From Verrucomicrobiota bacterium (GTDB lineage Bacteria; Verrucomicrobiota; Verrucomicrobiia; Limisphaerales; UBA9464), in the NCBI GenBank assembly GCA_017309115.1, contig JAFLEF010000001.1, positions 62,001 to 126,000 on the forward strand: DNA of 64,000 bases, written 5' to 3'. Below are positions 44,351-59,406 of this stretch, piece by piece. Under the pieces are notes generated by a model, which had not been told where the DNA came from, did not search any database, and saw only the letters and a program-made list of their open reading frames with translations. Both the position numbers and the translations under genes were made by a program. Each line of letters opens with the position of its first letter. Within the stretch, counting starts at the first letter, position 1.

Positions 44351-44713
44351 TCAGGTGTGAGCGATCCCCAGGATTTTCGCTGCGGCCAACAAAGCGCGGT
44401 CCCGAGTCCAAAGCCGGGCACCGTCAATCCGAGAGGAGGCCAAGAGCAGAAGGTCCGTCCAGCCTAGACCCTTGCCCCAAAGCCGGTGTTCTTCCAGCAG
44501 ATGCATCGCTTCATCGGCGCGACACTCGGATACAACCGGCAAAAGCCGTAGTTCTGCGAGAAACGGGTTCCGATTCTTGAGCGATCCGCAGGCGAGTTCC
44601 CCGATGATCGCTGGATGCGTGCTCACACGGCCTGCCTCAAGCAATCGGACCAGCCTTTGGTCACCGCGGTGGAGGTGATCGATCCAGACTGAGCTGTCGA
44701 CCAGCACCATCAT
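44351..44713 (-). CDS. vapC: PIN-domain ribonuclease toxin VapC
   Basis: A 120-residue PIN protein. Catalytic acids are visible in VLVDSSVWIDHL, ELACG, GLGWTDLLLLAS and TRDRALLAA. It starts at 44713 with ATGATG, overlapping the antitoxin stop as ATGA, the usual vapBC coupling. Probably active. Confidence 0.93.
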   Translation of the reverse strand: MMVLVDSSVWIDHLHRGDQRLVRLLEAGRVSTHPAIIGELACGSLKNRNPFLAELRLLPVVSECRADEAMHLLEEHRLWGKGLGWTDLLLLASSRIDGARLWTRDRALLAAAKILGIAHT

Positions 44714-45395: not shown

Positions 45396-46391
45396 ATGGC
45401 GCAGTCCGACCTCACACCCCAGACCGATTCCGCCGGCCTCTCCGAGGCCCCGATCTCATGGCATTATCTGGGCAGCCGCCAGGAACTGGCCCGGGGCCCG
45501 CGCCGTCATGATCTTCCGGGGGGCCAGCGTTTCGTCGGCTTCCTGACCGCTTCCGGCCAACCCGTCGTGCTTGCAGCGCGCTGCGTCCACATGGGGGCCG
45601 ATCTGGCCTTGGGCTCCGTGCGCGGCGATCGCCTTGCCTGTCCCCTTCACGGTTGGGAATACGGTGCGGATGGCCGGTGCGGACATATTCCCTGCCTGGC
45701 GGCACCAAAGATCCCGGCTGAGGCGCGACAACCGACCTTTCCGGTGGCGGAATGCGGCGGCCAGATTTTCTTCTTTAACGCGCCCGAGGCTCGATTCCCG
45801 ATGCCGTTCTTTGAGAACGTCACGCCGGAAGACCTCCAACCCGCACGCGCCTTCGACTTGGAGGACAACGTTCCGTGGTATTTCATCGGCGCGAACGGGT
45901 TCGATCTTCAGCACTTCGACAATGCCCATGATCGCGTCCTGATCGGGCAACCCACCGTCGATTCGCCTCATCCGTTTGCCCGCCGAATCACCTTGGACTT
46001 CAAAGTATCGGGCGATTCATGGGCCGACCGGGTGTCACGCCGTGTCGCTGGAGCCAAAGTACAATGGACCGTGACTTCATGGTGCGGCAGCCTGATTTTC
46101 GTCGTGGCGCGATTCCAACGCATCACCAGCTACGGACTGGTAACGGTGCAACCGCTGGAAAACCTGAACTCCCGGGAGCGCGTCATCGTATGGACTCGGC
46201 GAAGTCGCAGCTCGCTGGGCCGGCGCTTCTTTGATCCCGTGAACGCCGCCATCAGGCGCTCGTTCATTCAGAACTTTCTCCGATCCGATCTCGGCCGAAT
46301 GTCGGGAGCGCGGTATGGGCTGGGCCCGGTACTGGAGATCGACAATATTGTTCGGGACTATATGAACTGGTTACGAAAGGTTCACCGCTGA
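45396..46391 (+). CDS. Rieske non-haem iron oxygenase (KshA-like)
   Basis: A 331-residue oxygenase component. The [2Fe-2S] ligands are Cys63-x-His65 (CVHMGADL) and Cys82-x2-His85 (CPLHGWEYG). The mononuclear iron motif is D170-x2-H173-x4-H178 (DLQHFDNAHD). This pairing is typical of terminal oxygenases acting on sterol, aromatic or alkyl substrates. No reductase partner is encoded nearby. First gene of a large cluster that also has desaturase and radical SAM enzymes. Confidence 0.88.
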   Translation: MAQSDLTPQTDSAGLSEAPISWHYLGSRQELARGPRRHDLPGGQRFVGFLTASGQPVVLAARCVHMGADLALGSVRGDRLACPLHGWEYGADGRCGHIPCLAAPKIPAEARQPTFPVAECGGQIFFFNAPEARFPMPFFENVTPEDLQPARAFDLEDNVPWYFIGANGFDLQHFDNAHDRVLIGQPTVDSPHPFARRITLDFKVSGDSWADRVSRRVAGAKVQWTVTSWCGSLIFVVARFQRITSYGLVTVQPLENLNSRERVIVWTRRSRSSLGRRFFDPVNAAIRRSFIQNFLRSDLGRMSGARYGLGPVLEIDNIVRDYMNWLRKVHR

Positions 46392-46408
46392 TTCGTCCCT
46401 GCCCTTCC

Positions 46409-47023
46409 ATGAAGACATTCATCCTCCTGGCTTCCCTATTTCTGGCCTTGATCGCCCGCAGCCAGCCGACTCCCGTCCCCACGAAGTTGGACGCCACGGC
46501 CGCGATCACCGCACTCCGCACCGGATTGGTCGACAGTTTCGTCAAAGGGGACATCGACCGGTTGCTCACCTACCTTGATCCGGAGGTGGTGGTCACCTGG
46601 CAAAACGGCGAGGTCTGCAAGGGTCCAGAAGCCGTCCGCGCCTATCATCAAAAGATGATGACCGGGGAGGGACGTGTGGTGAAGAGCATCACGGCGAATC
46701 CCGAGATCTTGGGCCGCCACGTGGACACGGACTGGGCGGTTTCCTGGGGGAATCTGCACGACGATTTCACGTTGGCGGACGGCAGTCATTTACCGCTCAA
46801 CACCCTGTTCACCGCCACCATCGCGCGAAGGGGCGATCAATGGCTCGTCACCGGATTCCATGCTTCCGTGAACGCCTTCGACAATCCGATTCTCTCCTTA
46901 GCCCTGCGTCAGACCGCCCTTTGGACCGGCTTGGGGGCGGGCCTTGTCGGCCTCGTATTGGGGGTGGTGCTCACCCGCCTCCTGGCCCGCCGACCGGCCT
47001 CCGGGCCCGCGACCGCACCGTGA
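46409..47023 (+). CDS. Exported NTF2/SnoaL-like protein with C-terminal membrane anchor
   Basis: A 204-residue protein: signal peptide (ALIARS-Q), an NTF2-like alpha+beta barrel (about 30-155, with GDIDRLLTYLDPEVVVTW and GFHASVNAFDNPI) and a C-terminal hydrophobic helix (LWTGLGAGLVGLVLGVVLT) with a basic tail. NTF2-like domains serve as small-molecule binding pockets or isomerases. Tail-anchored on the periplasmic side is an unusual design. The gene is 17 bp after the Rieske gene and ends as GTGA into the next one. Confidence 0.75.
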   Translation: MKTFILLASLFLALIARSQPTPVPTKLDATAAITALRTGLVDSFVKGDIDRLLTYLDPEVVVTWQNGEVCKGPEAVRAYHQKMMTGEGRVVKSITANPEILGRHVDTDWAVSWGNLHDDFTLADGSHLPLNTLFTATIARRGDQWLVTGFHASVNAFDNPILSLALRQTALWTGLGAGLVGLVLGVVLTRLLARRPASGPATAP

Positions 47024-48054
47024 CACCGACCGACGGTGGGAGACCTCCCGGGTGGACGGCCGAGGATGAGGCGCTGCTGGGACACGCCCGTTCCCAGTTG
47101 GCACTGACCGTTTCCGCCGGCGATCTGGACGCCATCCGCCTGGGTGCGTTGGCGAAGGATGCCGGCATCGAAGCCGCCACCGCGCTCTGGTATGCGCGCC
47201 TCACCGGCTCTGCGCCGCATGCTGGATTCATGGCGCGTGTCCGCTGCGGGAAGGACAGCATCCGGCAACGACCCGACCTGATCGGCGTCGTGCCGGGCGC
47301 CTTCCATCGGGAACATCGAGACACCGGGGCTGATGGGGCTCGTCCGTTGGCTATTGCCCGCGAACTGGGTATTCCCGCAGAGCTGGTTCCCGTCGCGAGC
47401 TTCGGCCGACTGGAAGAGAACGCCGCCGTCATCGCGGCTTGGCTGAAGTCTCGCGCGCCGCGACAGATCGCCCTCATCAGCCTGAGCAAAGGCGGTGCGG
47501 ACGTGAAGCAGGCGCTCGCCCGACCCGATGCGACCGCGGCCTTCGCTCACGTCACCACTTGGATCAGCTTCAGCGGAGTGGTCCAGGGCACACCGCTGGT
47601 GAAGTGGCTGAAGGATCGGCCCTGGCGTTGGTGGGGGGTGAGTTTGCTCCTGCGCTGGCATGGGCACCGCATGGACGCCTTGCGGGATCTGCGACACGGT
47701 CGGGACACCCCGCTCCACACTTGGCCAGCATTACCTCCGCACCTTCGGATTGTTCACGTCTGCGGTTGTCCACTGCGCCGCCATCTCCGACACCGGTGGG
47801 CGACCCGGGCCTATGAACGCCTCGCGCCACTGGGGCCGAACGATGGCGGCGGCGTCCTGCTGGGGGACCTCTCAGGAGTGCCCGGAATCGTGTGTCCGAT
47901 CTGGGGTGCCGACCACTATCTCGAACCGGCTTGGGATGCGACGTCGCTCTGTTGCAACATCGTCGCCGCGGCTCTGGCCTTGGGCGAACTTCCCCAAGCC
48001 CACCAATCCGCGACGGCACCAACGACCCCACCCGCCAGCAGGTCCACCGCATAA
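47020..48054 (+). CDS. Alpha/beta-hydrolase-like protein
   Basis: A 344-residue protein starting at GTG 47020 overlapping the previous stop (GTGA). IALISLSKGGADVKQAL resembles a nucleophile elbow (small-x-Ser-x-Gly), and a late ICPIWGADHYLEPAW could supply acid and His. A longer frame from 46840 would lie inside the upstream gene. Substrate unknown. Its 3' end overlaps the convergent PAP2 gene by 139 bp. Confidence 0.55.
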   Translation: MTPTDGGRPPGWTAEDEALLGHARSQLALTVSAGDLDAIRLGALAKDAGIEAATALWYARLTGSAPHAGFMARVRCGKDSIRQRPDLIGVVPGAFHREHRDTGADGARPLAIARELGIPAELVPVASFGRLEENAAVIAAWLKSRAPRQIALISLSKGGADVKQALARPDATAAFAHVTTWISFSGVVQGTPLVKWLKDRPWRWWGVSLLLRWHGHRMDALRDLRHGRDTPLHTWPALPPHLRIVHVCGCPLRRHLRHRWATRAYERLAPLGPNDGGGVLLGDLSGVPGIVCPIWGADHYLEPAWDATSLCCNIVAAALALGELPQAHQSATAPTTPPASRSTA

Positions 48055-48590
48055 TGTTGGCGGGTGGCGATCGTCGCATAAAGCACGGCCAGTCCCCACG
48101 CCACGCCGACGCACCGGAGCGGGACGGAAAGCCGGCGACCGAACAGGCGCCATGCGAGTGCACCTTCGAACACCAGAAAACCCGCATGGAGGGATGGGAA
48201 GGCGTTCAAGATCCCATCGTAGCCAACAATCCACGCCATAGCTCCAAACGGGGGCGCGGACAGGATCCGGGGCGAAGCGACGGGAAAAAACAGGAAGATC
48301 AAGAAGCTGATCCCGCTCAACGCCGCGAAGCCCACGCCGAACCGAAGGAGGCCCGACCGGGTCGGGATCAACCAGGCCAACGGACCAACGACGAGGAATT
48401 GTGAAAGATAGATCCAGGCCCATGGCTCAGGTTGGAATGGGATGACCAGATCGGGCCACAAAAGTGGCGGCGTGCGCCGGGGGAACAACGCGATCCGCCC
48501 GAGGACCGAGTAAACGGTCCAGAACCCGAGGTTGAGTAGGATCGTCAACCGGAGCTTGAGCCCCCAATGCGCCTGGAACCGGGACCACAC
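47916..48590 (-). CDS. PAP2-superfamily membrane phosphatase/phosphotransferase
   Basis: A 224-residue integral membrane protein of the PAP2 (inositolphosphotransferase Aur1/Ipt1-like) type. The catalytic motifs NAFPSLHAGF (Ser133-x-His135) and TRQHYAVDLLAGG (Arg177, His179, Asp183) are present. Such enzymes dephosphorylate lipid phosphates or move head groups between lipids. Starts at GTG 48590 right after the desaturase stop at 48592, so it is likely translated by coupling. Confidence 0.85.
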   Translation of the reverse strand: MWSRFQAHWGLKLRLTILLNLGFWTVYSVLGRIALFPRRTPPLLWPDLVIPFQPEPWAWIYLSQFLVVGPLAWLIPTRSGLLRFGVGFAALSGISFLIFLFFPVASPRILSAPPFGAMAWIVGYDGILNAFPSLHAGFLVFEGALAWRLFGRRLSVPLRCVGVAWGLAVLYATIATRQHYAVDLLAGGVVGAVADWWAWGSSPKARAAATMLQQSDVASQAGSR

Positions 48591-48591
48591 G

Positions 48592-49521
48592 TCAGGGGAT
48601 AAGGTGCCCGGAATGCGGGTTGCGGACCCGGTTGGGGGCCGGACGCGGGCCCCGCCACATCTTGAGGTACGCCAATGGCAGAAATCCCGGACGCGCCCCT
48701 GATTCCGGCTCCGTGTGCGGCAAATGAATCCACGGGACCGAGGGATGTTGATGGTGCGTCAGATGCCAGTTGTGATTGAGCCAGAGGCGGTCGAGTGGAC
48801 CCCAGATCCAGAGGTTGCGCGCCCCGCGGGTCACATGCCGCTCGGTGCCGTAGTGATGGACATACTGCATGGCCGACCACATGAAACCGAAGCCGGCATA
48901 CATCACGAGGTAATGGCCCACCGGGATCCGCAGGCCCCACACCAACCCGACGTGCAGGGCGATGGCCGCCGCACATTCGAGACGGATTACCCGGCGATAA
49001 CTCGGGTTGAGCGATTCCATGAACGCCTTCGAAGCCTGATCCACCTCCCAATAGCGTTTGTCATCCCGAAACGGCATCATCAGAAACACCACGTTCGCCA
49101 GCACCACCACCACCCAATAAAACCCGGTCAGGATCCCGTACCACACCAGGAACCGCCACACCTTGTGATCCCCTTCGAAATAGAAATCAAACGCCTCGTC
49201 GTCGGAACGATTTCGCAGGTGATGACCGAGATGTCCCTGCCGGATCAGGTGGAAGGGCGCGGGGAAAAACAGCGCCAGAAAACTGCCAGTCAGGTCGTTC
49301 CATCGACGGTTCTCGAACAGCATGGCGTGCTCGGCCTCATGGATGGTGGCATAGACTGAATTCATCAGGATGCCGAACCCCAACGCCAGCGCCGCCAATC
49401 CCCAACCCGATTCGACCCGCGACACCGCCCACAGGCACATCGCAATCGCGGCCAACTGGCCGCACACGATGGCTAGGTTCAGCTGGCCGGGAATCGGAGC
49501 ACTCGCGGGGTGGGAAGGCAT
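48592..49521 (-). CDS. Membrane fatty-acid desaturase/hydroxylase-type di-iron enzyme
   Basis: A 309-residue membrane enzyme with three histidine boxes: HEAEH (61-65), HLGHH (97-101) and, near residue 260, HNWHLTHHQHP. These ligate the di-iron centre of desaturases, hydroxylases and ketolases. Start at 49521, 46 bp from the divergent radical SAM gene. With PAP2 it forms a two-gene unit suggesting lipid modification. Confidence 0.88.
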   Translation of the reverse strand: MPSHPASAPIPGQLNLAIVCGQLAAIAMCLWAVSRVESGWGLAALALGFGILMNSVYATIHEAEHAMLFENRRWNDLTGSFLALFFPAPFHLIRQGHLGHHLRNRSDDEAFDFYFEGDHKVWRFLVWYGILTGFYWVVVVLANVVFLMMPFRDDKRYWEVDQASKAFMESLNPSYRRVIRLECAAAIALHVGLVWGLRIPVGHYLVMYAGFGFMWSAMQYVHHYGTERHVTRGARNLWIWGPLDRLWLNHNWHLTHHQHPSVPWIHLPHTEPESGARPGFLPLAYLKMWRGPRPAPNRVRNPHSGHLIP

Positions 49522-49566
49522 CTTGGCACCTGAAATTGACGACCCGGATTTGACGGGTTCACGAGG

Positions 49567-51051
49567 ATGTTGACACGGATTTTCTTGTGCGTCGGATCCG
49601 AGCGGCAAGTATCGGCTCCAGTGCCCGTCGCCCCGTCCAGATTCTCGTCGTCGCAACGTCTGCGCGTGGCTCTGATTTCCCCCAAGGGCCCGCTCTATCG
49701 TCACCGGGGTGGCATCTGGAAGAAGTCGCTGCGCTATCAACCGCTGACCCTCACCACCCTCGCCGCGCTGATCCCGCCGGAACTGCCGGTCGACGTGCAC
49801 TTGATCGATGAAGGCATCGCCGATGTGCCGGACGATCTCGACGCCGACCTTATCGGGCTGACCGTGATCACCGGCACCGCCCGTCGGGCCTACGAACTGG
49901 CGGACCGATTCCGACTCCGGGGCCGCACCGTCGTGCTGGGCGGGCCGCACGTCACGCTCCTTCCCGAAGATGCGCAACCGCACGCCGATGCCATCGTGGT
50001 CGGATATGCCGAGGACACGTGGCCGGAACTCCTGCGCGATTTCGCCGTCGGCGCGCTCCGACCGCGCTACGACCAAGCTCCCGGACTGGAGATCGGCGGT
50101 CGCCCTTTCCCGAGGCGTGATCTCCTGCCCAGTCGACACTATCTCACCAGCAATGTCTTCGAGGCCACGCGCGGTTGTGTGCACGCCTGTGATTTCTGTG
50201 TCGTCCCGACTGCGTGGGGACGAACGCCCTTCCAAAAGCCCGTCGGCGAAGTCATCGCGGACATCCGCCAGCACGGCGCGCGCAAACTCATCTTCATCGA
50301 CCTGAATCTGGTCGCCCACCGCGGTTACGCGCTCGAACTGTTCACCGCGCTGATCCCCCTGCGACTGCAATGGTACGGGCTGGCGACGGTGCTGCTGGCC
50401 GAGGATGCGGAGTTGCTCGACCTTTGCGGCCGCAGCGGCTGTCGCGGATTGCTGATGGGGTTGGAATCGATCTCGCCCTCCAACCTTCGGGAGAGCCACA
50501 AGGGTTTCAACCGCCCCGAGAACTACCGGCGCGTCGTCGAGCAGCTCCATGCCCACAGGATCGCCTTGCAGGGCTGCTTTGTCTTCGGGCTCGACGGGGA
50601 CCGGCCCGACGTCTTTCTGAAGACCGCCGAGTTTGCCGTCGCGGCGGGCATTGACCTGCCGCGGTTCGCCGTGGTGACGCCCTTCCCCAACACCCCGCTG
50701 TATCTCCGCCTGGAGGCCGAGGGCCGGATCCTCACCCGGGACTGGGAATTGTACGACGCCCAGCATGTCGTGTTTCAGCCGGCGCAAATGTCGGTTCAGG
50801 AACTTCAGCAGGGGGTGGAAGCCGCGTGGAAACACGCCTACAGCCTGCGCTCGATCGCTCGCCGCATCCGACATTCGCCCGCGCCTTGGCCGGTAAAACT
50901 CGGCACCAACCTGGGCTACCGCTTCTACGCGCACCACTTGAACCGCTTTTATAACTGCGACTGGATCATCGGCCGCGCGCCCTCCCGGCCCGCTGCGAAT
51001 CCGGCCCCCAACCCGCCGGCCCCGGCACCGAGCCTGGCTTCCCTGGAATGA
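49567..51051 (+). CDS. Cobalamin-binding radical SAM protein 1
   Basis: A 494-residue class B type radical SAM protein. The N-terminal Rossmann-like B12-binding domain covers about 34-165 (RVALISPKGPLYRHRGGIWK, GTARRAYELADRFRLRGRTV, VVLGGPHVTLLP), and CxxxCxxC is Cys204-Cys208-Cys211 (GCVHACDFC). Resembles HpnP/BchE-type methylases or oxidases. It lies 45 bp from the divergent desaturase and overlaps the next gene (ATGA). The reaction is unknown. Confidence 0.9.
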   Translation: MLTRIFLCVGSERQVSAPVPVAPSRFSSSQRLRVALISPKGPLYRHRGGIWKKSLRYQPLTLTTLAALIPPELPVDVHLIDEGIADVPDDLDADLIGLTVITGTARRAYELADRFRLRGRTVVLGGPHVTLLPEDAQPHADAIVVGYAEDTWPELLRDFAVGALRPRYDQAPGLEIGGRPFPRRDLLPSRHYLTSNVFEATRGCVHACDFCVVPTAWGRTPFQKPVGEVIADIRQHGARKLIFIDLNLVAHRGYALELFTALIPLRLQWYGLATVLLAEDAELLDLCGRSGCRGLLMGLESISPSNLRESHKGFNRPENYRRVVEQLHAHRIALQGCFVFGLDGDRPDVFLKTAEFAVAAGIDLPRFAVVTPFPNTPLYLRLEAEGRILTRDWELYDAQHVVFQPAQMSVQELQQGVEAAWKHAYSLRSIARRIRHSPAPWPVKLGTNLGYRFYAHHLNRFYNCDWIIGRAPSRPAANPAPNPPAPAPSLASLE

Positions 51052-52406
51052 GGGTCACCCTCATCCACCCGTGCATCGGCCGCCGGCGCCATGACCGCGG
51101 CTATATCCGCACTTGGCAGATGGAACCACTGCCCGCCGCCACCCTCGCCGGGCTTACTCCGCGTGAGGTCGAACTCCGCTTTCACGATGATCGGATGGAG
51201 GAGATCCCGTTCAACGAACCGACCGATCTCGTCGCCCTGAGCGTCGAGACCTATACCGCCCGACGCGCCTATCAGATCGCCACCGAATACCGGCGACGCG
51301 GGATCCCCGTCGTCATAGGCGGCTTTCACGCCGCCCTCTGTCCGGACGAAGTTGCCCGCCATGCCGAGGCGGTCGTAATTGGCGAAGCGGAGGTGCTCTG
51401 GCCCCGGGTGCTCGACGACGCCCGCCACGGTCGGATGGAAAAATTCTACCGGCAGACGGGACGCCCGTCGCTCGTAGGACTCAAGCCGGACCGCTCGATC
51501 TTCCGAGGGAAGCGTTACCTGCCCGTCGGGTTGGTCGAAGCCGGTCGTGGCTGTCATTTCAAGTGTGACTTCTGCGCGGTGCAGACGGTTTTCGCCTCGA
51601 CCCAGACGCGCCGGCCCACCGACGCCATCCTCGCCGAGTTGGTCGCGCTCAAGGGAGAGAAGAAACTGTTCTTCTTCGTCGACGACAACATCACGTCGAA
51701 CCTCGCCCAGGCGAAGGAGTTCTTCCGTGCGCTCATCCCGTTGGGGATCCGCTGGGTCAGCCAGTCGAGCATTAACGCCGCGCACGATGACGAATTCCTC
51801 GACCTGCTGGTGCGCAGCGGCTGCCAGGGGGTGTTGATCGGGTTTGAGAGCCTGAATGCCGACAACCTTCGGGCCATGGGGAAATCCTTCAACATGATGC
51901 ACGGCGGATTCGAACGCGCCCTCGCCAATCTCCGGCGACACCGGATCCGGGTGTATGGCACGTTCATTTTCGGCTACGACGGCGACACGCCCGAAAGCTT
52001 CGCTCCGACCATCGCCTTCGCCCGGGAACACGCGCTGTATATCGCGGCGTTCAATCATCTGACTCCCTTTCCCGGCACGCCCCTCTATCAGCGACTCGCC
52101 GCCGAGGGCCGCCTGCTTTATGAATCGTGGTGGCTCGACGAGCGGTACAGTTACAATCGGATTCCGTTCCAGCCGCGCGGCATGGACCCGGGGACGCTTC
52201 AACGCGGTTGTCTCGCTGCCCGCCGGGAATTCTATTCATGGCCGAGCATCCTGCAGCGGGGCTTCGACCCCGTGAATCGCAGCAACGCCTTCATGTGGCG
52301 GAATTTTTATCTCATCAACGGAATGCACCGCAGCGACGTCAGCCAGCGCGATCATTATCCGTTGGGCGACGAGGCCTGGCAGGGGCCCCTCCTGCCAGCC
52401 CCATGA
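51048..52406 (+). CDS. Cobalamin-binding radical SAM protein 2
   Basis: A 452-residue relative of the previous protein: B12-binding-like N-terminus (VIGGFHAALCPDEVARHAEA) and CxxxCxxC at Cys169-Cys173-Cys176 (GCHFKCDFC). The C-terminal third (TPFPGTPLYQRLAAEGRLL) aligns with TPFPNTPLYLRLEAEGRIL of the first, so the two arose by duplication. ATGA overlaps at both ends make it part of one translational chain. Confidence 0.9.
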   Translation: MRVTLIHPCIGRRRHDRGYIRTWQMEPLPAATLAGLTPREVELRFHDDRMEEIPFNEPTDLVALSVETYTARRAYQIATEYRRRGIPVVIGGFHAALCPDEVARHAEAVVIGEAEVLWPRVLDDARHGRMEKFYRQTGRPSLVGLKPDRSIFRGKRYLPVGLVEAGRGCHFKCDFCAVQTVFASTQTRRPTDAILAELVALKGEKKLFFFVDDNITSNLAQAKEFFRALIPLGIRWVSQSSINAAHDDEFLDLLVRSGCQGVLIGFESLNADNLRAMGKSFNMMHGGFERALANLRRHRIRVYGTFIFGYDGDTPESFAPTIAFAREHALYIAAFNHLTPFPGTPLYQRLAAEGRLLYESWWLDERYSYNRIPFQPRGMDPGTLQRGCLAARREFYSWPSILQRGFDPVNRSNAFMWRNFYLINGMHRSDVSQRDHYPLGDEAWQGPLLPAP

Positions 52407-53503
52407 CCGCGAGCGCCCACTTCCGACTGGCCACGCCCGACGACGACGACGCGATCCGTCGCCTCTTGCGCGACAATCCGATGCCGGGTGCCGTCACGCT
52501 TTCGTTCGAACGCGAGCCCGACTATTTCCGGAGCGCCGGACTCGCCGGCGCCGACGACCAGACGATTCTGGCCTTCGCCGACCAGCGTCTGGTGTGCGTC
52601 GGCCGTTGCACCGTGCGCCCCGGTTGGATCAATGGGGCGATCCGCCGCCTCGGTTACCTCGGGGAATTGCGTCTGGACGCCACCGCCCACGGAAGATTTC
52701 ACGTGGTGCGGGGCGGCTATCAGTTCTTCCGGGAGCTTCACCGGGCCAATCCGGCCGACTTCTATTTCACCAGCATCGCCACCGACAACGACCGGGCCCG
52801 ACGCCTGCTCGAACGCGGCGTGCGCGGCCTGCCGCGCTACGACCCTCTGGGCGGTCTGATGTCCCTGCTTGTGCCGGTTCCCCAGAATCCCCAACCGCCC
52901 GCCGTCCCTCTGGAGACCGCCCACAACGGGGACCTGGAAGAACTCGCGGCGTTGCTCAACCAATCGGCCCAGCGCCATCAACTCGCCACCGCCTGGACCG
53001 CCCACCAACTCGCCAGCCTCGGCCAGCACGGCCTACCGCCCGAACGGTTTCGACTGCTGCGCCGCCATGGCCGGATCGTCGCGTGCGCGGCGCTGTGGGA
53101 TCAACGCGGGTTCCGGCAGATTCGGGTGCGCGGCTATTCCGGGCTGCTGGGTTGGGCCCGACCGGCCTGGAACCTGGCCGCGCGTCTGTTCGGAACCCCC
53201 CGATTGCCCGCGCCGAAGAGCGTCTTGGCGAACGCCTTCGTTTCACCGCTAGCGTCCGCCGAGGCCGACGAATCCCTCGTGCCCGACCTGGTGGCGGGTC
53301 TGTTCCCGGAGGCCGTCGAACAGGGTCTTGAGTTCCTCACACTCGGCTTGGGCGAAGGGGATCCGCAGATCGCCGCCCTGCGCCGCCGGTTTCCTTGCCG
53401 CACGTATATGAGTCGGATCTACCGGGTCTCTTGGGACGAGGACCCGGACCCGATTGGCGCGCTCGACGGCCGGCTGTTCCGGCCCGACATCTCCTTGCTA
53501 TGA
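52403..53503 (+). CDS. GNAT-fold acyltransferase-like protein 1
   Basis: A 366-residue protein starting at ATG 52403 overlapping the stop of the radical SAM gene. The first 150 residues look like a GNAT N-acetyltransferase fold (FRLATPDDDDAIRRLLRDN, RRLGYLGELRLD, FYFTSIATDNDRARRLLERG). The rest may be a second, degenerate GNAT domain. It could acylate an amine or carry out a peptidyl-like transfer. Substrate unknown. Confidence 0.65.
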   Translation: MTASAHFRLATPDDDDAIRRLLRDNPMPGAVTLSFEREPDYFRSAGLAGADDQTILAFADQRLVCVGRCTVRPGWINGAIRRLGYLGELRLDATAHGRFHVVRGGYQFFRELHRANPADFYFTSIATDNDRARRLLERGVRGLPRYDPLGGLMSLLVPVPQNPQPPAVPLETAHNGDLEELAALLNQSAQRHQLATAWTAHQLASLGQHGLPPERFRLLRRHGRIVACAALWDQRGFRQIRVRGYSGLLGWARPAWNLAARLFGTPRLPAPKSVLANAFVSPLASAEADESLVPDLVAGLFPEAVEQGLEFLTLGLGEGDPQIAALRRRFPCRTYMSRIYRVSWDEDPDPIGALDGRLFRPDISLL

Positions 53504-54228
53504 GCGATACCTCAAGCCGAGAGATCTCCGGGCTGGTGCCGCGCGCCGCGCTGAGTGTCGGGCAGCGGGACGAAATGTTCGCACTGCTCGATCGGCATTT
53601 CAGCGGGGTTACTCGGGCGCAGTTCGCAGACGATCTCGCCGCGAAGAACTGGGTGATCGAACTCCGCCGCGCCGGGCGTCTCATGGGTTTTTCCACGCTC
53701 CTCGCGACCACCTCGGTCTTCGAAGGCCGATCGATCACGGCCTTATACTCGGGCGACACCATCGTCTCGCCCGAGGCTTGGAACAGCCCGGCGTTGTTCC
53801 GGGCGTGGATCGCCGGAGTGAAGCGCATCCGCTCAACCCTGCCCGCTCAACCCTGCCATTGGCTGCTGTTGACGTCGGGCTTCCGGACCTACCGGCTGCT
53901 CCCGTTGTTTTGGCGGGAGTTCACCCCGCGCTTCGACACGCGTCCTTCGCCCATCCAGCAACGGTTGCTGGTACATCTCGCGAACGAGCACTATGGAGCT
54001 CGTTTCGAGGCCGCTGCGGGGCTCGTCCGTTTTCCCCATCCCCAGCGTCTCCGCGCCCCTCTCGCCACCGTTCCAACCGGTCGCATCCGCGATCCCCACA
54101 TCGCCCACTTCCTCCACCTCAATCCCGGTCACGCCGAAGGGGACGAACTAGTGTGCCTGACGGAGATCGACGACGCCAACCTCACCGCCGCAGGTCGCCG
54201 CATGGCGGGTGTGCCGAGCCCGGAATGA
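53500..54228 (+). CDS. GNAT-like protein 2, unknown function
   Basis: A 242-residue protein starting at ATG 53500 (ATGA overlap). Contains a predicted beta-alpha fold similar to acyltransferases (ISGLVPRAALSVGQRDEMFA, NWVIELRRAGRLMGFSTLLA, HWLLLTSGFRTYRLL). No catalytic motif is recognised. Placed between GNAT-like protein 1 and the GH3 gene in the same chain, which implies a shared pathway. Confidence 0.5.
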   Translation: MSDTSSREISGLVPRAALSVGQRDEMFALLDRHFSGVTRAQFADDLAAKNWVIELRRAGRLMGFSTLLATTSVFEGRSITALYSGDTIVSPEAWNSPALFRAWIAGVKRIRSTLPAQPCHWLLLTSGFRTYRLLPLFWREFTPRFDTRPSPIQQRLLVHLANEHYGARFEAAAGLVRFPHPQRLRAPLATVPTGRIRDPHIAHFLHLNPGHAEGDELVCLTEIDDANLTAAGRRMAGVPSPE

Positions 54229-55826
54229 ACCTCCGCTCGACACTCGCCAACGCCGCCTGGCTCGCCACCGGCCTGCCCGCCCGGCGTCGGTTCATTCGCG
54301 CCCTCGAAGAACCCGCCGCTGCCCAATGGCGAGTGCTCCGGACCCAACTCGCCCGCAACGCCGCCAGCGCCTACGGCCGCAACCATGGTTTCGCTGAGAT
54401 TCGTTCGCCGGAAGATTTCGCACGTCGGGTGCCCGTGGTGGGATATGAGGAACTCGAACCCTGGATCGAACGGATCCGGCGGGGCGAATCGTCCGTGCTC
54501 ACTTCTGGACCCGTCACACGACTCATCCCCACCAGCGGTTCCAGCGGGGCCCGCAAACTGATCCCCTTCACGGCTTCCGTGCAGCGTGAATTCAATGCGG
54601 CCATCAGTCCGTGGATGGCCGATCTGGTCCGCCAACATCCCACCGTCCCCTTGGGCCCCGCCTACTGGTCCGTAACACCCATGGCCCAAGTGGACGTCGA
54701 GAAGGGCTCGGCCGTGCCCATCGGGTTCGATGACGACCGCCGTTATCTGGGTGGTACTCGGGCGTGGCTCGTGGAATCCCTGATGGCGGTACCAAGCGCG
54801 GTGCGCCACATCACCGATCTCACCGCCTTCCGTCACGCCGTCCTCCTTTGCCTGCTGCGCCACGCCGACCTGCGCTTGGTCTCCGTCTGGCATCCGTCGT
54901 TCTTCGCCCTGCTGCTCGATGCTTTGCCGACGCACTGGGATGCGTTACTCAGGGACCTTTCCGAGGGGACCTTCCGTTACGCCGACCGGGTGCCTGGGAA
55001 CGTGCTTGCGGCGCTTCACTTGCGCCCGCGGCCACGGTGGGTTGACCGTCTCAAGCGTTGCGCACCGGAGCACCCGGAAACCCTGTGGCCCAATCTGCGC
55101 GTGGTGAGTTGCTGGGCCGACGGTCACGCCGGCGGGGCGGCGAACGCTTTGGGACGGCGCCTCCCGCAGGCCATGATCCAATCGAAAGGTCTCTTGGCCA
55201 CTGAAGCGTTCGTCACGATTCCGTATGAGGGCGCCCATCCGCTCGCCCTTTGCTCCCATTACTTTGAGTTCGCCGACGACGCCGGCGGAATCCATCCCGC
55301 CCAGGCCCTCCGGAGCGGCGTCACGTACGGGGTGATTGTCACGACGGGCGGCGGCCTGTGGCGGTATCGTCTGGGGGATCAGGTCGAAGTCACTGGGTTC
55401 GTCGGTCGGACGCCCTCGCTGCGCTTCCTCGGTCGGGCCGGAGGCGTCTCCGATCGTTGCGGCGAGAAGCTCTCCGAGGCCTTCGTCATCCGGGCAATCG
55501 AAGGTGCGTTTGCGCCAACTCCAGTGCCCGCCTTCGCGATGCTGGCCCCGGAGGAGGGCGCCGACGGTTGGCACTATGTCCTCTACGTCGACGTGCCAAC
55601 GCCCGTTGATCTCGGACCCAGGCTCGACACAGCGCTACGGGCCAATCCGCACTACGCGCTGTGCCGCGATCTCGGACAACTCGGGCCGATCCGGACCTTC
55701 CGCATCGGGTCGGGCGCCTATGAAACCTTTGCAACGGCCGAGATGGCGCGGGGACTACGGCTCGGAGACCTGAAGCCCGCCGCCCTGTCAGCGGAGACGG
55801 GTTGGTCGAAGCGGTTCACCGGTTGA
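54225..55826 (+). CDS. GH3-family acyl-adenylating amide synthetase
   Basis: A 533-residue GH3-type enzyme. Motif 1 is TSGSSGARKLIPFT (ATP binding), motif 3 is LWRYRLGDQVEVTG, and GKLLATE-like and GRAGGVSDRCGEKLSE segments fit the family. Plant GH3 enzymes join an acyl acid to an amino acid through acyl-AMP; bacterial ones are poorly described. Start 54225 overlaps the upstream stop by ATGA. It ends the five-gene chain. Confidence 0.9.
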   Translation: MNLRSTLANAAWLATGLPARRRFIRALEEPAAAQWRVLRTQLARNAASAYGRNHGFAEIRSPEDFARRVPVVGYEELEPWIERIRRGESSVLTSGPVTRLIPTSGSSGARKLIPFTASVQREFNAAISPWMADLVRQHPTVPLGPAYWSVTPMAQVDVEKGSAVPIGFDDDRRYLGGTRAWLVESLMAVPSAVRHITDLTAFRHAVLLCLLRHADLRLVSVWHPSFFALLLDALPTHWDALLRDLSEGTFRYADRVPGNVLAALHLRPRPRWVDRLKRCAPEHPETLWPNLRVVSCWADGHAGGAANALGRRLPQAMIQSKGLLATEAFVTIPYEGAHPLALCSHYFEFADDAGGIHPAQALRSGVTYGVIVTTGGGLWRYRLGDQVEVTGFVGRTPSLRFLGRAGGVSDRCGEKLSEAFVIRAIEGAFAPTPVPAFAMLAPEEGADGWHYVLYVDVPTPVDLGPRLDTALRANPHYALCRDLGQLGPIRTFRIGSGAYETFATAEMARGLRLGDLKPAALSAETGWSKRFTG

Positions 55827-55965: not shown

Positions 55966-58900
55966 TTACTGGTTCACGAAGGGAGCCTGCCACAAATAGA
56001 CCGGCGCATTACGCGTGGCCTCGGTCACGACCAATTGGGAATCATCGGGCGCGAAGCGGAGGCAATAGATCTTCACCGGCATTTGGATAGTGGCCAACTC
56101 CCGCAGGGTTTCCACATGCCAAAGCTTCACGGTCCAATCGTCAGAAGAGGAAGCCAGTGTTCGGCCGTCACTCGAAAATGCCACTTCAAGAACTCCCGCC
56201 TTGTGGCCATTCAACGTCGCCACCTTTTCACCGGTTGCCACACTCCACAAATGGATCAACCGATCCCAACTCGCCGTCGCCAACAATCGCCCATCGGGTG
56301 AAAACGATCCTCCCACCACCGCATTTCCATGGCCCTTCTTGGACCACCGTGTTTGTCCCGTTTCCAGGTCCACCACCCCGACATCCCCACGGCTCCCCCC
56401 GAGCATCAGCAAGTCATGGACACCCGACATTCGAATCACTCGCGTGAGAAATGGGAACTGGGAACTCCGCTGTCGCTTACCGGTCAGCGTGTCATATACC
56501 TCCATCGACTGCTCCCCGTGCTGGAAGACAATCCTCGCTCCATCCCGGGTTATCTGTTCCCCCCAGATTGTTGCTCCATTCAAACCCTCCAAATGCACCT
56601 GACTCAGGAAGCGGCCCTGCACGAGATCCCAGCGCAGGATCACATCCCGGGCCTCACTAACGGTGACCAATCCCTGGCCATCCGCAGTTACCGCCGCCGG
56701 CAAGTTACCGTCAGGTAGGGAATGGATACGCTTCAGCGTTTTCGCGTTCAGAACATGGACGGCCCAACCTTCTGCCATGACGCACACGTATTTTGAGTCC
56801 GGGGTAAACAAGGGGTAGGACAACGTCCTGCCGCGCTCTATTCCTACTGTCGGCAACAAATCGGTACCCTTTCGTGGCCGGGCGTCCACAGCCCACAATC
56901 TCACGGAATGATCAAACGAAGCCGTGGCCAACGTCTCACCATCGGGACTGAACGCGACGCCCCAAACCTCCGACTCGTGCCCGGCCAAACGCCCGGTCCG
57001 CCGCGCCTTCTGCAAATCCCACAACTCCACTTCATGCAATTGCCGGGATGCAGCCAAGGTTCGGCCGTCGGGGGAGACAGAAATGCCCGTGACGAAATCT
57101 GCCGAAAAATCGCCCTCACCGGGATCGCGGATCCGGCGGACGGATTCGTCCGCAAGGTTCCACTGTAAAATCTCTCCTTGGGCGGTGCTGAGGAACACCG
57201 ATTTCCCATCAACCGCGAACGCCAATCCCATGACCCGAGGAACAGATTTCAGGCGGCGGACTTTTTCGTGCGAACCGAGGTTGAAGACCGAGACTTGCTG
57301 TTGGTAGTTGGCCGTCACCAGCAACCGTCCATCGGGCGAAAACGCCGCGCGATCTCCACTCTCAGGTAGTTTGGCGACCAAAGTCCGCGACTCGGTATCC
57401 CAGAGTTGGACCTCGCCATCGGATTCCGCCCACATGTTTCCGCCAACGCCAATGGCCAGCAGGGGACTCGCCGGAGAGAATACGGCCCTCGGTGAAGCAT
57501 TCGTGATGGTCCATTCCAAAGCACCTCCCGGCACGGTAAGGATGCGGACTTGTGCGTCGTCCGACGCCACCGCCAGTTTCCGGCTATCCGGAGAGAACGA
57601 GAGTGTCGTGACGGGAGCCGCAAGGTTCGACAATTCGGCTACGGGCGCGCCGTTTGCGGTGGAGCGGAGGCGAACGACATCAGCGCCACCTGAAGCGAGC
57701 CACTTCCGGTCGGGCGACCACGCCACGGCAACGACGTTGTTCTTATGATCCCGAAAGGTCGTTTTCTGATCCCCCTGCGTCCGATTCCAAAGGTATCTCC
57801 ATTCAAAGCCCCTGAGATCCTTGCTCCCATTGGTCGGGACTTGAGCGCTCAGCAGCGTTCTGGCGCGTCCGAGATTCCCTTCCTGGATCGACTGGAACGC
57901 CAACTGGATGTCGGCGGCATAGAGATTTCGGTTGGCGACGTCGCGGGCCGTGCGCACCGAGGCCGACTCCTGTTCGGAAACGCGTAAGAGCCTCGCCTGG
58001 TCCGCCTCCACCACTCGAAGCCTCTTTAAGGTCGCGGCGGCCTGCAGGTATGAGGCAAAGGAGACCATGCCCCCGACAAAGAACACGATCAGGACGGAGC
58101 TCAAGGCCACGAAGAGGCCACGATTCCGACGAGCCATCCGTCCCAGACGATAGAGTGGGTTCGGTGGCCGGGCGATGACCACCTCATGATTCAGGAAACG
58201 CAGCAGATCCGCCGACAATCCATTCGCCGTCTCATACCTACGCGCACGCGCCTTCTCGAGACACTTCAGCACGATCCAATCCAAGTCGCCGGAAAGCATC
58301 CGCGCCAACTTAGCGGCGCCCGCGCCACGCGCCGCGGCGACCTTCGCACGATCCTCCGGTGACATCGATTGAACACACGTACTGGGCCGAACCGCTTCCT
58401 GCTCGCGAATCACCCGACGCATCTTGTCCAGACCCGACGAAACCAATTCCTTACCATCAAAGGGAGTGCGTCCCGTGAGCAGTTCATAGAGCAAGACCCC
58501 CAGGGAGTAGATGTCGCTCCGGGTATCGATACCTTCCCCGGTCGACTGCACCTGTTCCGGACTCATGTACGAAGGAGTTCCGATGATCTGGTTCACCTGC
58601 GTATAGACCGTCGCGTCGGTCAACCGACCTTCGACGGCCTTGGCCACACCGAAATCAATCACCTTTGGTACCGGCACATCATTCACGCGGGTCACCAGAA
58701 TGTTCGAGGGCTTGATGTCGCGGTGAATGATTCCTTTCTGGTGGGCATGTTGGATCGCGCCACAAACCTGAATGAACAGGTTCACGCGTTCCGCCAGGGT
58801 GAGATGATTCTGGTCGCAGAAATCCGTGATCTTGGACCCCAACACCAATTCCATCACGAAATACGGTCGCCCCGCCTCGGTGCTGCCGGCATCAAACACC

Positions 58901-59406
58901 TTGGAAATGTTGGGATGATCCATCAGGGCAAGCGCCTGACGTTCCAAATCGAACCGAGCGAGCACCGAGTCGGTATCCATCCCGGGCTTGATGACTTTGA
59001 CGGCAACGCGCCGTTGGACCGGTTCGTATTGTTGAGCGGCATACACGACCCCGCATCCGCCTTCGCCGAGTTTCTCAAGCAACTTGTACCGCCCGATGCG
59101 AACACCTTCCAAAGCTGCGGTCAGACCATCCACCGGCAGACGTTGGGGGGACGAAACCTCGTTGGCGGCTTTGGGATCCTGCCCGGGAGAACCCAACGAA
59201 GCCCGCAACTGGTGGTGCTTCTCAAACAAGCCCGGCAGTACGCCCTCCGTTTCGATCGAGGCTGCCAACAGCGCCTTCAGGCGCGCGGCCGCCACCGGAT
59301 CGGTCGCGGCCAGTCCTTCCAGCATGTCCTGACGCCGCCGCGGATCTGTGGTCGCCATCAACGCCTCATACAAGGCTTCTTCCGAGCTCTCGCGGGGGCC
59401 ATTCAT
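55966..59406 (-). CDS. Membrane Ser/Thr protein kinase with WD40 repeat domain
   Basis: A 1146-residue protein. The kinase domain spans about 107-400 with G-loop GEGGCGVV (114-121), Lys137 (AVKVIK), HRDIKPSN (228-235), DFG and SPEQ. A single membrane helix (FVALSSVLIVFFVGGMVSF) near residue 455 separates it from a C-terminal WD40 propeller; blades such as HESEVWGVAFSPDGETLATA, then ASFDHSVRLW, and KAGVLEVAFSSDGRTLASSS are clear, with at least five recognisable. The N-terminal 100 residues resemble a sigma-factor-associated or death-like helical region common in this phylum. The WD40 part is expected outside the cytoplasm. Confidence 0.93.
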   Translation of the reverse strand: MNGPRESSEEALYEALMATTDPRRRQDMLEGLAATDPVAAARLKALLAASIETEGVLPGLFEKHHQLRASLGSPGQDPKAANEVSSPQRLPVDGLTAALEGVRIGRYKLLEKLGEGGCGVVYAAQQYEPVQRRVAVKVIKPGMDTDSVLARFDLERQALALMDHPNISKVFDAGSTEAGRPYFVMELVLGSKITDFCDQNHLTLAERVNLFIQVCGAIQHAHQKGIIHRDIKPSNILVTRVNDVPVPKVIDFGVAKAVEGRLTDATVYTQVNQIIGTPSYMSPEQVQSTGEGIDTRSDIYSLGVLLYELLTGRTPFDGKELVSSGLDKMRRVIREQEAVRPSTCVQSMSPEDRAKVAAARGAGAAKLARMLSGDLDWIVLKCLEKARARRYETANGLSADLLRFLNHEVVIARPPNPLYRLGRMARRNRGLFVALSSVLIVFFVGGMVSFASYLQAAATLKRLRVVEADQARLLRVSEQESASVRTARDVANRNLYAADIQLAFQSIQEGNLGRARTLLSAQVPTNGSKDLRGFEWRYLWNRTQGDQKTTFRDHKNNVVAVAWSPDRKWLASGGADVVRLRSTANGAPVAELSNLAAPVTTLSFSPDSRKLAVASDDAQVRILTVPGGALEWTITNASPRAVFSPASPLLAIGVGGNMWAESDGEVQLWDTESRTLVAKLPESGDRAAFSPDGRLLVTANYQQQVSVFNLGSHEKVRRLKSVPRVMGLAFAVDGKSVFLSTAQGEILQWNLADESVRRIRDPGEGDFSADFVTGISVSPDGRTLAASRQLHEVELWDLQKARRTGRLAGHESEVWGVAFSPDGETLATASFDHSVRLWAVDARPRKGTDLLPTVGIERGRTLSYPLFTPDSKYVCVMAEGWAVHVLNAKTLKRIHSLPDGNLPAAVTADGQGLVTVSEARDVILRWDLVQGRFLSQVHLEGLNGATIWGEQITRDGARIVFQHGEQSMEVYDTLTGKRQRSSQFPFLTRVIRMSGVHDLLMLGGSRGDVGVVDLETGQTRWSKKGHGNAVVGGSFSPDGRLLATASWDRLIHLWSVATGEKVATLNGHKAGVLEVAFSSDGRTLASSSDDWTVKLWHVETLRELATIQMPVKIYCLRFAPDDSQLVVTEATRNAPVYLWQAPFVNQ

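Follow-up and report, generated by a model that had tools for sequence, protein, structure and literature searches.

A conserved ten-gene set with GH3, GNAT-like and B12-binding radical SAM enzymes: a candidate pathway for modified acyl amides or aminolipids in Verrucomicrobiota and other bacteria

Gene content of the locus

We examined a window of 64,000 nucleotides from a Verrucomicrobiota bacterium (assembly GCA_017309115.1, contig JAFLEF010000001.1, positions 62,001 to 126,000), which carries ten open reading frames (ORFs) across window positions 45396-55826. As the initial annotation had described, the last five of them (49567-55826) are chained by ATGA overlaps, four in number. Two genes come in addition to those listed in its title: an alpha/beta-hydrolase (AB) and a SnoaL-like protein carrying a membrane helix. 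The ten genes are the following (window coordinates, strand, assignment and supporting match; SAM, S-adenosylmethionine):

45396..46391, + strand: Rieske non-heme iron oxygenase (pathway type); PF00355, E 2.8e-15
46409..47023, + strand: SnoaL-like/DUF4440 protein with a C-terminal hydrophobic helix; PF14534, E 4.5e-9, hydropathy peak 170-188
47020..48054, + strand: alpha/beta-hydrolase (AB), Ser-Asp-His conserved; profile match to carboxylesterase 5d8m, E 9.8e-13
47916..48590, - strand: PAP2_3 membrane phosphatase or transferase (PAP2); PF14378, E 4.9e-13
48592..49521, - strand: membrane di-iron enzyme of the FA_desaturase family, desaturase or hydroxylase (DES); PF00487, E 1.7e-25
49567..51051, + strand: SAM1, B12-binding radical SAM enzyme; PF02310, E 2.9e-12, and PF04055, E 7.7e-9
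51048..52406, + strand: SAM2, B12-binding radical SAM enzyme; PF04055, E 4.8e-16, and PF02310, E 3.8e-7, just under the cut-off
52403..53503, + strand: GNAT1, long GNAT-like acyltransferase; relatives match Acetyltransf_1
53500..54228, + strand: GNAT2, acyltransferase of GNAT fold that lacks the usual R/QxxGxG/A loop; Acetyltransf_9 in relatives, structure model
54225..55826, + strand: GH3-family acyl-acid amido synthetase; PF03321, E 3.3e-48

The chained genes SAM1-SAM2-GNAT1-GNAT2-GH3 are called the core five below. By hydropathy, a membrane helix was predicted in the SnoaL-like protein, PAP2 and the desaturase, and none in the core five, Rieske or AB proteins.

Conservation of the set across genomes

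A scan of genome contigs with SAM2 gave 88 relatives, of which the best 80 loci were kept; locus counts refer to this set. By their record titles, which may be wrong for single metagenome-assembled genomes (MAGs), these loci belong to Verrucomicrobia, Planctomycetota, Acidobacteria, Anaerolineales and Caldilineaceae, Gemmatimonadales, Halomonas, Thiobacillus, Desulfuromonas, Sulfurospirillum, Elusimicrobia and others; the cluster is thus not limited to Verrucomicrobiota. One locus titled Proteobacteria (L046) was placed among Verrucomicrobia on the SAM2 tree. All five core genes were found in 62/80 loci, at least 44 of these 62 having them in a single order and strand with gaps below 400 bases. 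For the 18 loci lacking the full core, a contig end lay in or beside the cluster in 12. All ten genes were present in nine loci, including that of Chthoniobacter flavus Ellin428 (L038). SAM2 identity reached 80 and 81% in two relatives of the order.

Since the 80-locus set selects for SAM2, we took 387 genomes of the phylum as a further sample. SAM2 matches were obtained in 48 genomes; 19 were counted as orthologs (at least 430 bits, or two strong partial matches in G390) and 29 weaker ones, the top one at 319.8 bits, were left out. GNAT2 was present in 19 genomes, SAM2 in 19, GH3 in 23 and all three in 17, where about one shared genome per pair was expected (Fisher p 1e-22 to 1e-25, values which serve as a guide only, the genomes being related). 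Among 97 genomes near that of the window (own included), GH3 was strong in three others (G068, G088 and G092) and weak in G012. In the three, GNAT1-GNAT2-GH3 adjoin, and SAM2 is whole in two and partial in the third, in a partly masked stretch. The sets of 97 near genomes, 80 loci, and 50 whole genomes and 23 phylum carriers described below are not fully independent, owing to overlaps (L042 with L009/G088, L043 with L008/G068 and L037 with G388).

The ten-gene set is a conserved unit with the core five recurring side by side across many phyla. This answers the question raised in the initial annotation of whether the homologues would be scattered or co-conserved: they are co-conserved. Distances between proteins also co-varied (Spearman over pairs of 57 loci), with GNAT2-GH3 at 0.83, GNAT1-GH3 at 0.69, GNAT2-SAM2 at 0.69 and SAM1-SAM2 at 0.66, which hints at one acyl-transfer module and one SAM module.

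Several rearrangements of the cluster were observed. Two copies occur in one MAG (L053, L054), GNAT2-GH3 is repeated in L068, and in L041 GH3-GNAT2 and part of GNAT1 lie beyond the accessory block in inverted orientation. Three of the loci in which SAM2 stands alone are titled Caldilineaceae or Litorilinea. A GNAT1-GNAT2 fusion suspected in L144 turned out to be a spurious upstream reading frame. Next to the window cluster, by-eye reading suggested a short ORF resembling the PIN-domain VapC toxin of a toxin-antitoxin pair (44351-44713, - strand) and a large Ser/Thr protein kinase with WD40-like repeats (55966-59406, - strand); ORFs resembling this kinase were present in three other loci.

Core and accessory enzymes and their nearest relatives

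GH3 enzymes adenylate a carboxylic acid and then hand it to an amine. Judged by profile scores, the window protein is a member of the GH3 acyl-acid amido synthetase family: PF03321, GH3_M and GH3_C matched at 164.9, 54.6 and 29.1 bits (each cut-off 23.6), and plant GH3.15 was matched at E 1.7e-30. The initial annotation took GH3 enzymes to be rare in bacteria, which is not so. Residues G105, T326, E327, G377, R380 and D385 were found in 58/58 aligned cluster proteins, K111 in 56/58 and Ser104 of motif I in 45/58, with nucleotide-binding motifs I-III taken from PMC12493201. The cluster GH3 shares fold family and adenylation motifs with the plant acyl-acid amido synthetases (GH3.15, JAR1); unlike these, it is bacterial, sits in an operon and has GNATs and radical SAM enzymes as partners.

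Among known systems, OlsH/OlsI of ornithine lipid synthesis in Singulisphaera acidiphila comes closest. According to the same source (PMC12493201), OlsH, a bacterial GH3, consumes fatty acid, ATP and ornithine to form N-acyl ornithine, to which the alpha/beta-hydrolase OlsI adds the second acyl. Both systems have a bacterial GH3 in an operon, an alpha/beta-hydrolase and, on the present reading, lipid chemistry. Compared with what is described there, the present cluster differs in having a pair of GNATs, between two and four B12-radical-SAM enzymes, a desaturase, a Rieske enzyme and PAP2, whereas the OlsH/OlsI operon has the OlsG methyltransferase and OlsI; the alpha/beta-hydrolase of the cluster, likened to OlsI by family only, is found in 15/80 loci. 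No Pfam match to a SAM methyltransferase of the OlsG kind was obtained among the ten window proteins. The best of 58 cluster GH3 members matched the OlsH profile (NCBIfam NF052613) at E 6.3e-24. The window copy stayed far under its cut-off (49.7 vs 620 bits); membership of the OlsH lyso-ornithine lipid synthetases was accordingly rejected and the amine of GH3 left unspecified.

Acetyltransf_1 was matched by 23/72 GNAT1 members (best E 2.8e-10), the window copy having no match, and Acetyltransf_9 by 23/65 GNAT2 members (best E 9e-8). Sequence searches of the PDB gave weak matches only for both. A structure model and fold comparison assigned GNAT2 to the GNAT fold, with GCN5, Naa, AAC(2') and LasI within about 1.5 Z and no GNAT family standing out. 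The usual acyl-coenzyme A (acyl-CoA) loop of GNATs reads R/Q-x-x-G-x-G/A. It was not found in the GNAT2 consensus (columns 83-105, 65 sequences), where Ser84, Gly85 and Thr87 were present in 65/65 and Trp94 in 59/65. The acyl-homoserine-lactone synthase LasI likewise combines the GNAT fold with absence of the usual acetyl-CoA loop. The missing loop of GNAT2 makes an unusual donor possible, for example acyl-acyl carrier protein (acyl-ACP).

B12-radical-SAM enzymes perform chemistry at unreactive carbons. SAM1 passed the Pfam cut-offs for B12-binding (46.9 bits, cut-off 32.1) and Radical_SAM (36.4 bits, cut-off 29.5); SAM2 passed that for Radical_SAM (59.8 bits) and scored just under it for B12-binding (30.4 bits). 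The CxxxCxxC motif was found in 177/177 radical SAM sequences of the set, and the best PDB match of SAM2 was chain 9ccb. Among the best named relatives of SAM1 and SAM2 by score were HpnJ and other lipid B12-radical-SAM enzymes, with which they have their domain architecture in common: HpnJ, HpnR and rSAM_ladder were all matched below cut-off (HpnJ 62.4 and 84 of 577.6 bits, rSAM_ladder 52.2 and 60.1 of 360), and BchE scored 68.9 and 73.1 against 481.35. Membership of BchE, HpnJ, rSAM_ladder (ladderane) and PhpK was rejected, every NCBIfam cut-off being missed by far. Up to five radical SAM genes lie in a single locus (L143). A further radical SAM protein without B12 domain was seen beside the core in L143, L147, L149, L154, L040 and L099, accompanied by an amidohydrolase in L143, L154 and L040; L150 appeared similar by eye.

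The catalytic residues of the accessory proteins were largely kept. In Rieske, the Cys, His and Asp ligands (CxH...CxxH cluster and 2-His-1-Asp iron site) were found in 16/16 aligned proteins, the last Asp in 15/16; the nearest solved structures by sequence were SxtDIOX/SxtT and 3-ketosteroid 9alpha-hydroxylase. AB, for which the window protein gave no Pfam match, had catalytic S156, D275 and H299 in 14/14 aligned proteins, and PAP2 had PSLH, His179 and Asp183 in 15/15. Eight His positions of the desaturase were kept in 24 or 25 of 25 members; a PDB sequence search with it gave no match at E 1. In L009 a fatty acid hydroxylase adjoins SAM1 at the place of the window's desaturase, and an AurF-like protein occurs in 5/80 loci. 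PAP2_3 and FA_desaturase form one fused protein between GNAT2 and GH3 in L073 (13304-14878) and L077 (5814-7403).

Proposed pathway and competing readings

We propose that the ten genes form a single pathway whose product is a modified acyl amide or aminolipid, a reading that we hold to be evenly poised and in which substrates, product and step order are inferred. In its favour are the enzyme families and kept active-site residues, the co-conservation of the genes, the co-varying distances, the PAP2-desaturase fusion, the chemistry of OlsH and OlsI and the non-overlap of Rieske with a second radical SAM pair described below. GH3 would adenylate a long-chain carboxylic acid with ATP and join it to an amino acid-like amine. 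Further acyl groups, taken from acyl-ACP or acyl-CoA, would be added by GNAT1 and GNAT2, and SAM1 and SAM2 would carry out B12-dependent radical chemistry at unreactive chain carbons, either methylating them or forming C-C bonds. The membrane block (PAP2, di-iron desaturase/hydroxylase and SnoaL-like protein), together with Rieske and the alpha/beta-hydrolase, would complete the product. A modified lipid or acyl amide, as the initial annotation had suggested, fits the mostly intact catalytic residues, the bacterial GH3 relative making N-acyl ornithine and the three accessory proteins with membrane helices; what stands of that suggestion is this fit, the substrate and product themselves being deduced. 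The individual enzymes are all of known kinds, and the pathway appears to be a so far undescribed variant of acyl-amide synthesis through GH3. The earlier statement that no described pathway with this combination was known to its author agrees with our search: no matching characterised pathway was found in the full-text literature covered, most subscription-journal papers lying outside it.

A second B12-radical-SAM gene pair, SAM3-SAM4, shows 41-49% identity to SAM2 and branches apart from the SAM2 clade; support is 1.0 for this, and only 0.44 for SAM3/4 as a group. In the 80 loci, Rieske was present in 19, SAM3/4 in 15 and both in none (Fisher p 0.016). We then considered 50 whole genomes chosen by locus type (19 with Rieske, 15 with SAM3/4 and 16 drawn from the 46 that have neither), most of them draft MAGs in which genes may be missed. 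Rieske was counted in 19 (strong matches of at least 170 bits; the generic ones of G505, G520 and G526, at most 144 bits, were left out), SAM4 in 18 (at least 568 bits, SAM2 itself scoring about 430-510), both in none and neither in 13. The three extra SAM4 genes, in the genomes of L079, L083 and L101, sit away from the locus. On the SAM2 tree of 50 carriers and the window, parsimony gave 11 changes for Rieske and 8 for SAM3/4 (L080 left out), so that a single old split is no explanation. Also, SAM3-SAM4 in L098 and SnoaL-Rieske in L100 are alternatives inside an otherwise similar gene order. Rieske and SAM3-SAM4, never seen together, may thus replace each other, and SAM3-SAM4 could stand in where the Rieske gene is missing, perhaps as its oxygen-independent counterpart. 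A comparable case is BchE/AcsF, an oxygen-independent B12-radical-SAM enzyme versus an oxygen-dependent cyclase: there too a B12-radical-SAM enzyme and an oxygenase are apparently interchangeable in one pathway. Here, by contrast, the oxygenase is of Rieske type, it faces a pair of radical SAM proteins, and the equivalence of the two forms is presumptive.

The strongest competing view, a serious one if short of an even chance, is that Rieske and SAM3-SAM4 have unrelated jobs and that lineage, contig ends or incomplete genomes account for their never overlapping. It draws on the modest p value for 80 loci, on the selection and draft state of the 50 genomes, and on two results which also weigh on the proposed pathway. 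In 23 phylum carriers (window's genome included) two genomes gave a strong Rieske match and G402 a weak one; SAM4 was present in 1, both in none and neither in 19, so the step is optional. COX1, a family which also takes in nitric oxide reductases, was found in 19/19 Rieske, 16/18 SAM4 and 13/13 neither genomes. Being nearly everywhere, it does not separate the types; the expectation that carriers of SAM3-SAM4 would do without oxygen respiration was not clearly borne out, and oxygen use as the divider is retained only as a weak idea. Against unrelated jobs stand the absence of co-occurrence in 50 whole genomes, the repeated changes on the tree and the similar surroundings in L098 and L100.

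Other observations count against a single ten-gene pathway as well. The accessory genes are optional, Rieske being present in 19, AB in 15, SnoaL in 25, PAP2 in 31 and DES in 31 of 80 loci, counts in which weak profile matches, down to 30 bits, are included and some loci are truncated. At the position of the essential Ser115 of OlsH, 45 of the 58 proteins have Ser, 12 have Gly (for which an alignment shift is possible) and one has Thr, and the window GH3 is far from the OlsH cut-off, as given above. Neither SAM1 nor SAM2 reaches a curated cut-off for function. SAM2 was found without other core genes in 4/80 loci (L065, L066, L070 and L071). Finally, G402 has Rieske and GNAT2-GH3-GNAT1 with no SAM1-SAM2 beside them: its locus (L142, 5111-13837) also carries two proteins of the desaturase family and one resembling AurF, and its best B12-radical-SAM match (248.6 bits) is about 90 kb off.

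An isoprenoid substrate is improbable: PAP2 and a squalene/phytoene-synthase-like domain would supply a prenyl chain, oxidised by a CrtW/CrtR-like di-iron enzyme and Rieske before GH3 amide formation. It is suggested by L068 (3530-5074), where PAP2_3 is fused to such a domain (SQS_PSY, E 2.8e-7, 30.9 of 26 bits) and with which the long PAP2 proteins of L100 and L102 cluster, and by 11/25 desaturase members matching the beta-carotene hydroxylase CrtR (best E 2.1e-10; window copy 17.1 of 475 bits). However, the long protein of L102 gave PAP2 only, the core has no prenyl synthase, and squalene-hopene cyclase was not found at E 1e-20 in 27/50 carrier genomes (drafts included, so that genes may be missed). 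We rate no higher a product that is not a membrane lipid but a small acyl-amide or lactone which diffuses and serves as signal or antibiotic, with the GNATs acting like acyl-homoserine-lactone synthases; transporter- and regulator-like genes were rarer than the membrane proteins SnoaL, PAP2 and DES. A hopanoid side-chain or ladderane pathway, to which the HpnJ, HpnR and rSAM_ladder matches of SAM1/SAM2 pointed, is very improbable given scores far under the HpnJ and rSAM_ladder cut-offs, and the hopanoid version was dropped on the squalene-hopene cyclase result.

Returning to the acyl-amide or aminolipid pathway, it might go further and represent a new class, in which a GNAT1-GNAT2-GH3 acyl-transfer core with B12-radical-SAM pairs makes unseen membrane amide lipids in many phyla, in interchangeable oxygen-dependent (Rieske) and oxygen-independent (SAM3-SAM4) forms; this extension is tentative and we consider it rather unlikely, the class being new if the product proves new. 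Chthoniobacter flavus Ellin428, a named carrier strain, makes the pathway testable, and the product is worth isolating. A gene set that stays together in so many phyla, here with as many as five radical SAM genes per locus, usually points to a product of high value to the cell. Should this be a lipid, lipid surveys would have overlooked or left unassigned a widespread class, perhaps of use as a biomarker, and the Rieske/radical-SAM exchange, if true, would offer a further test case for pathway adaptation to oxygen.

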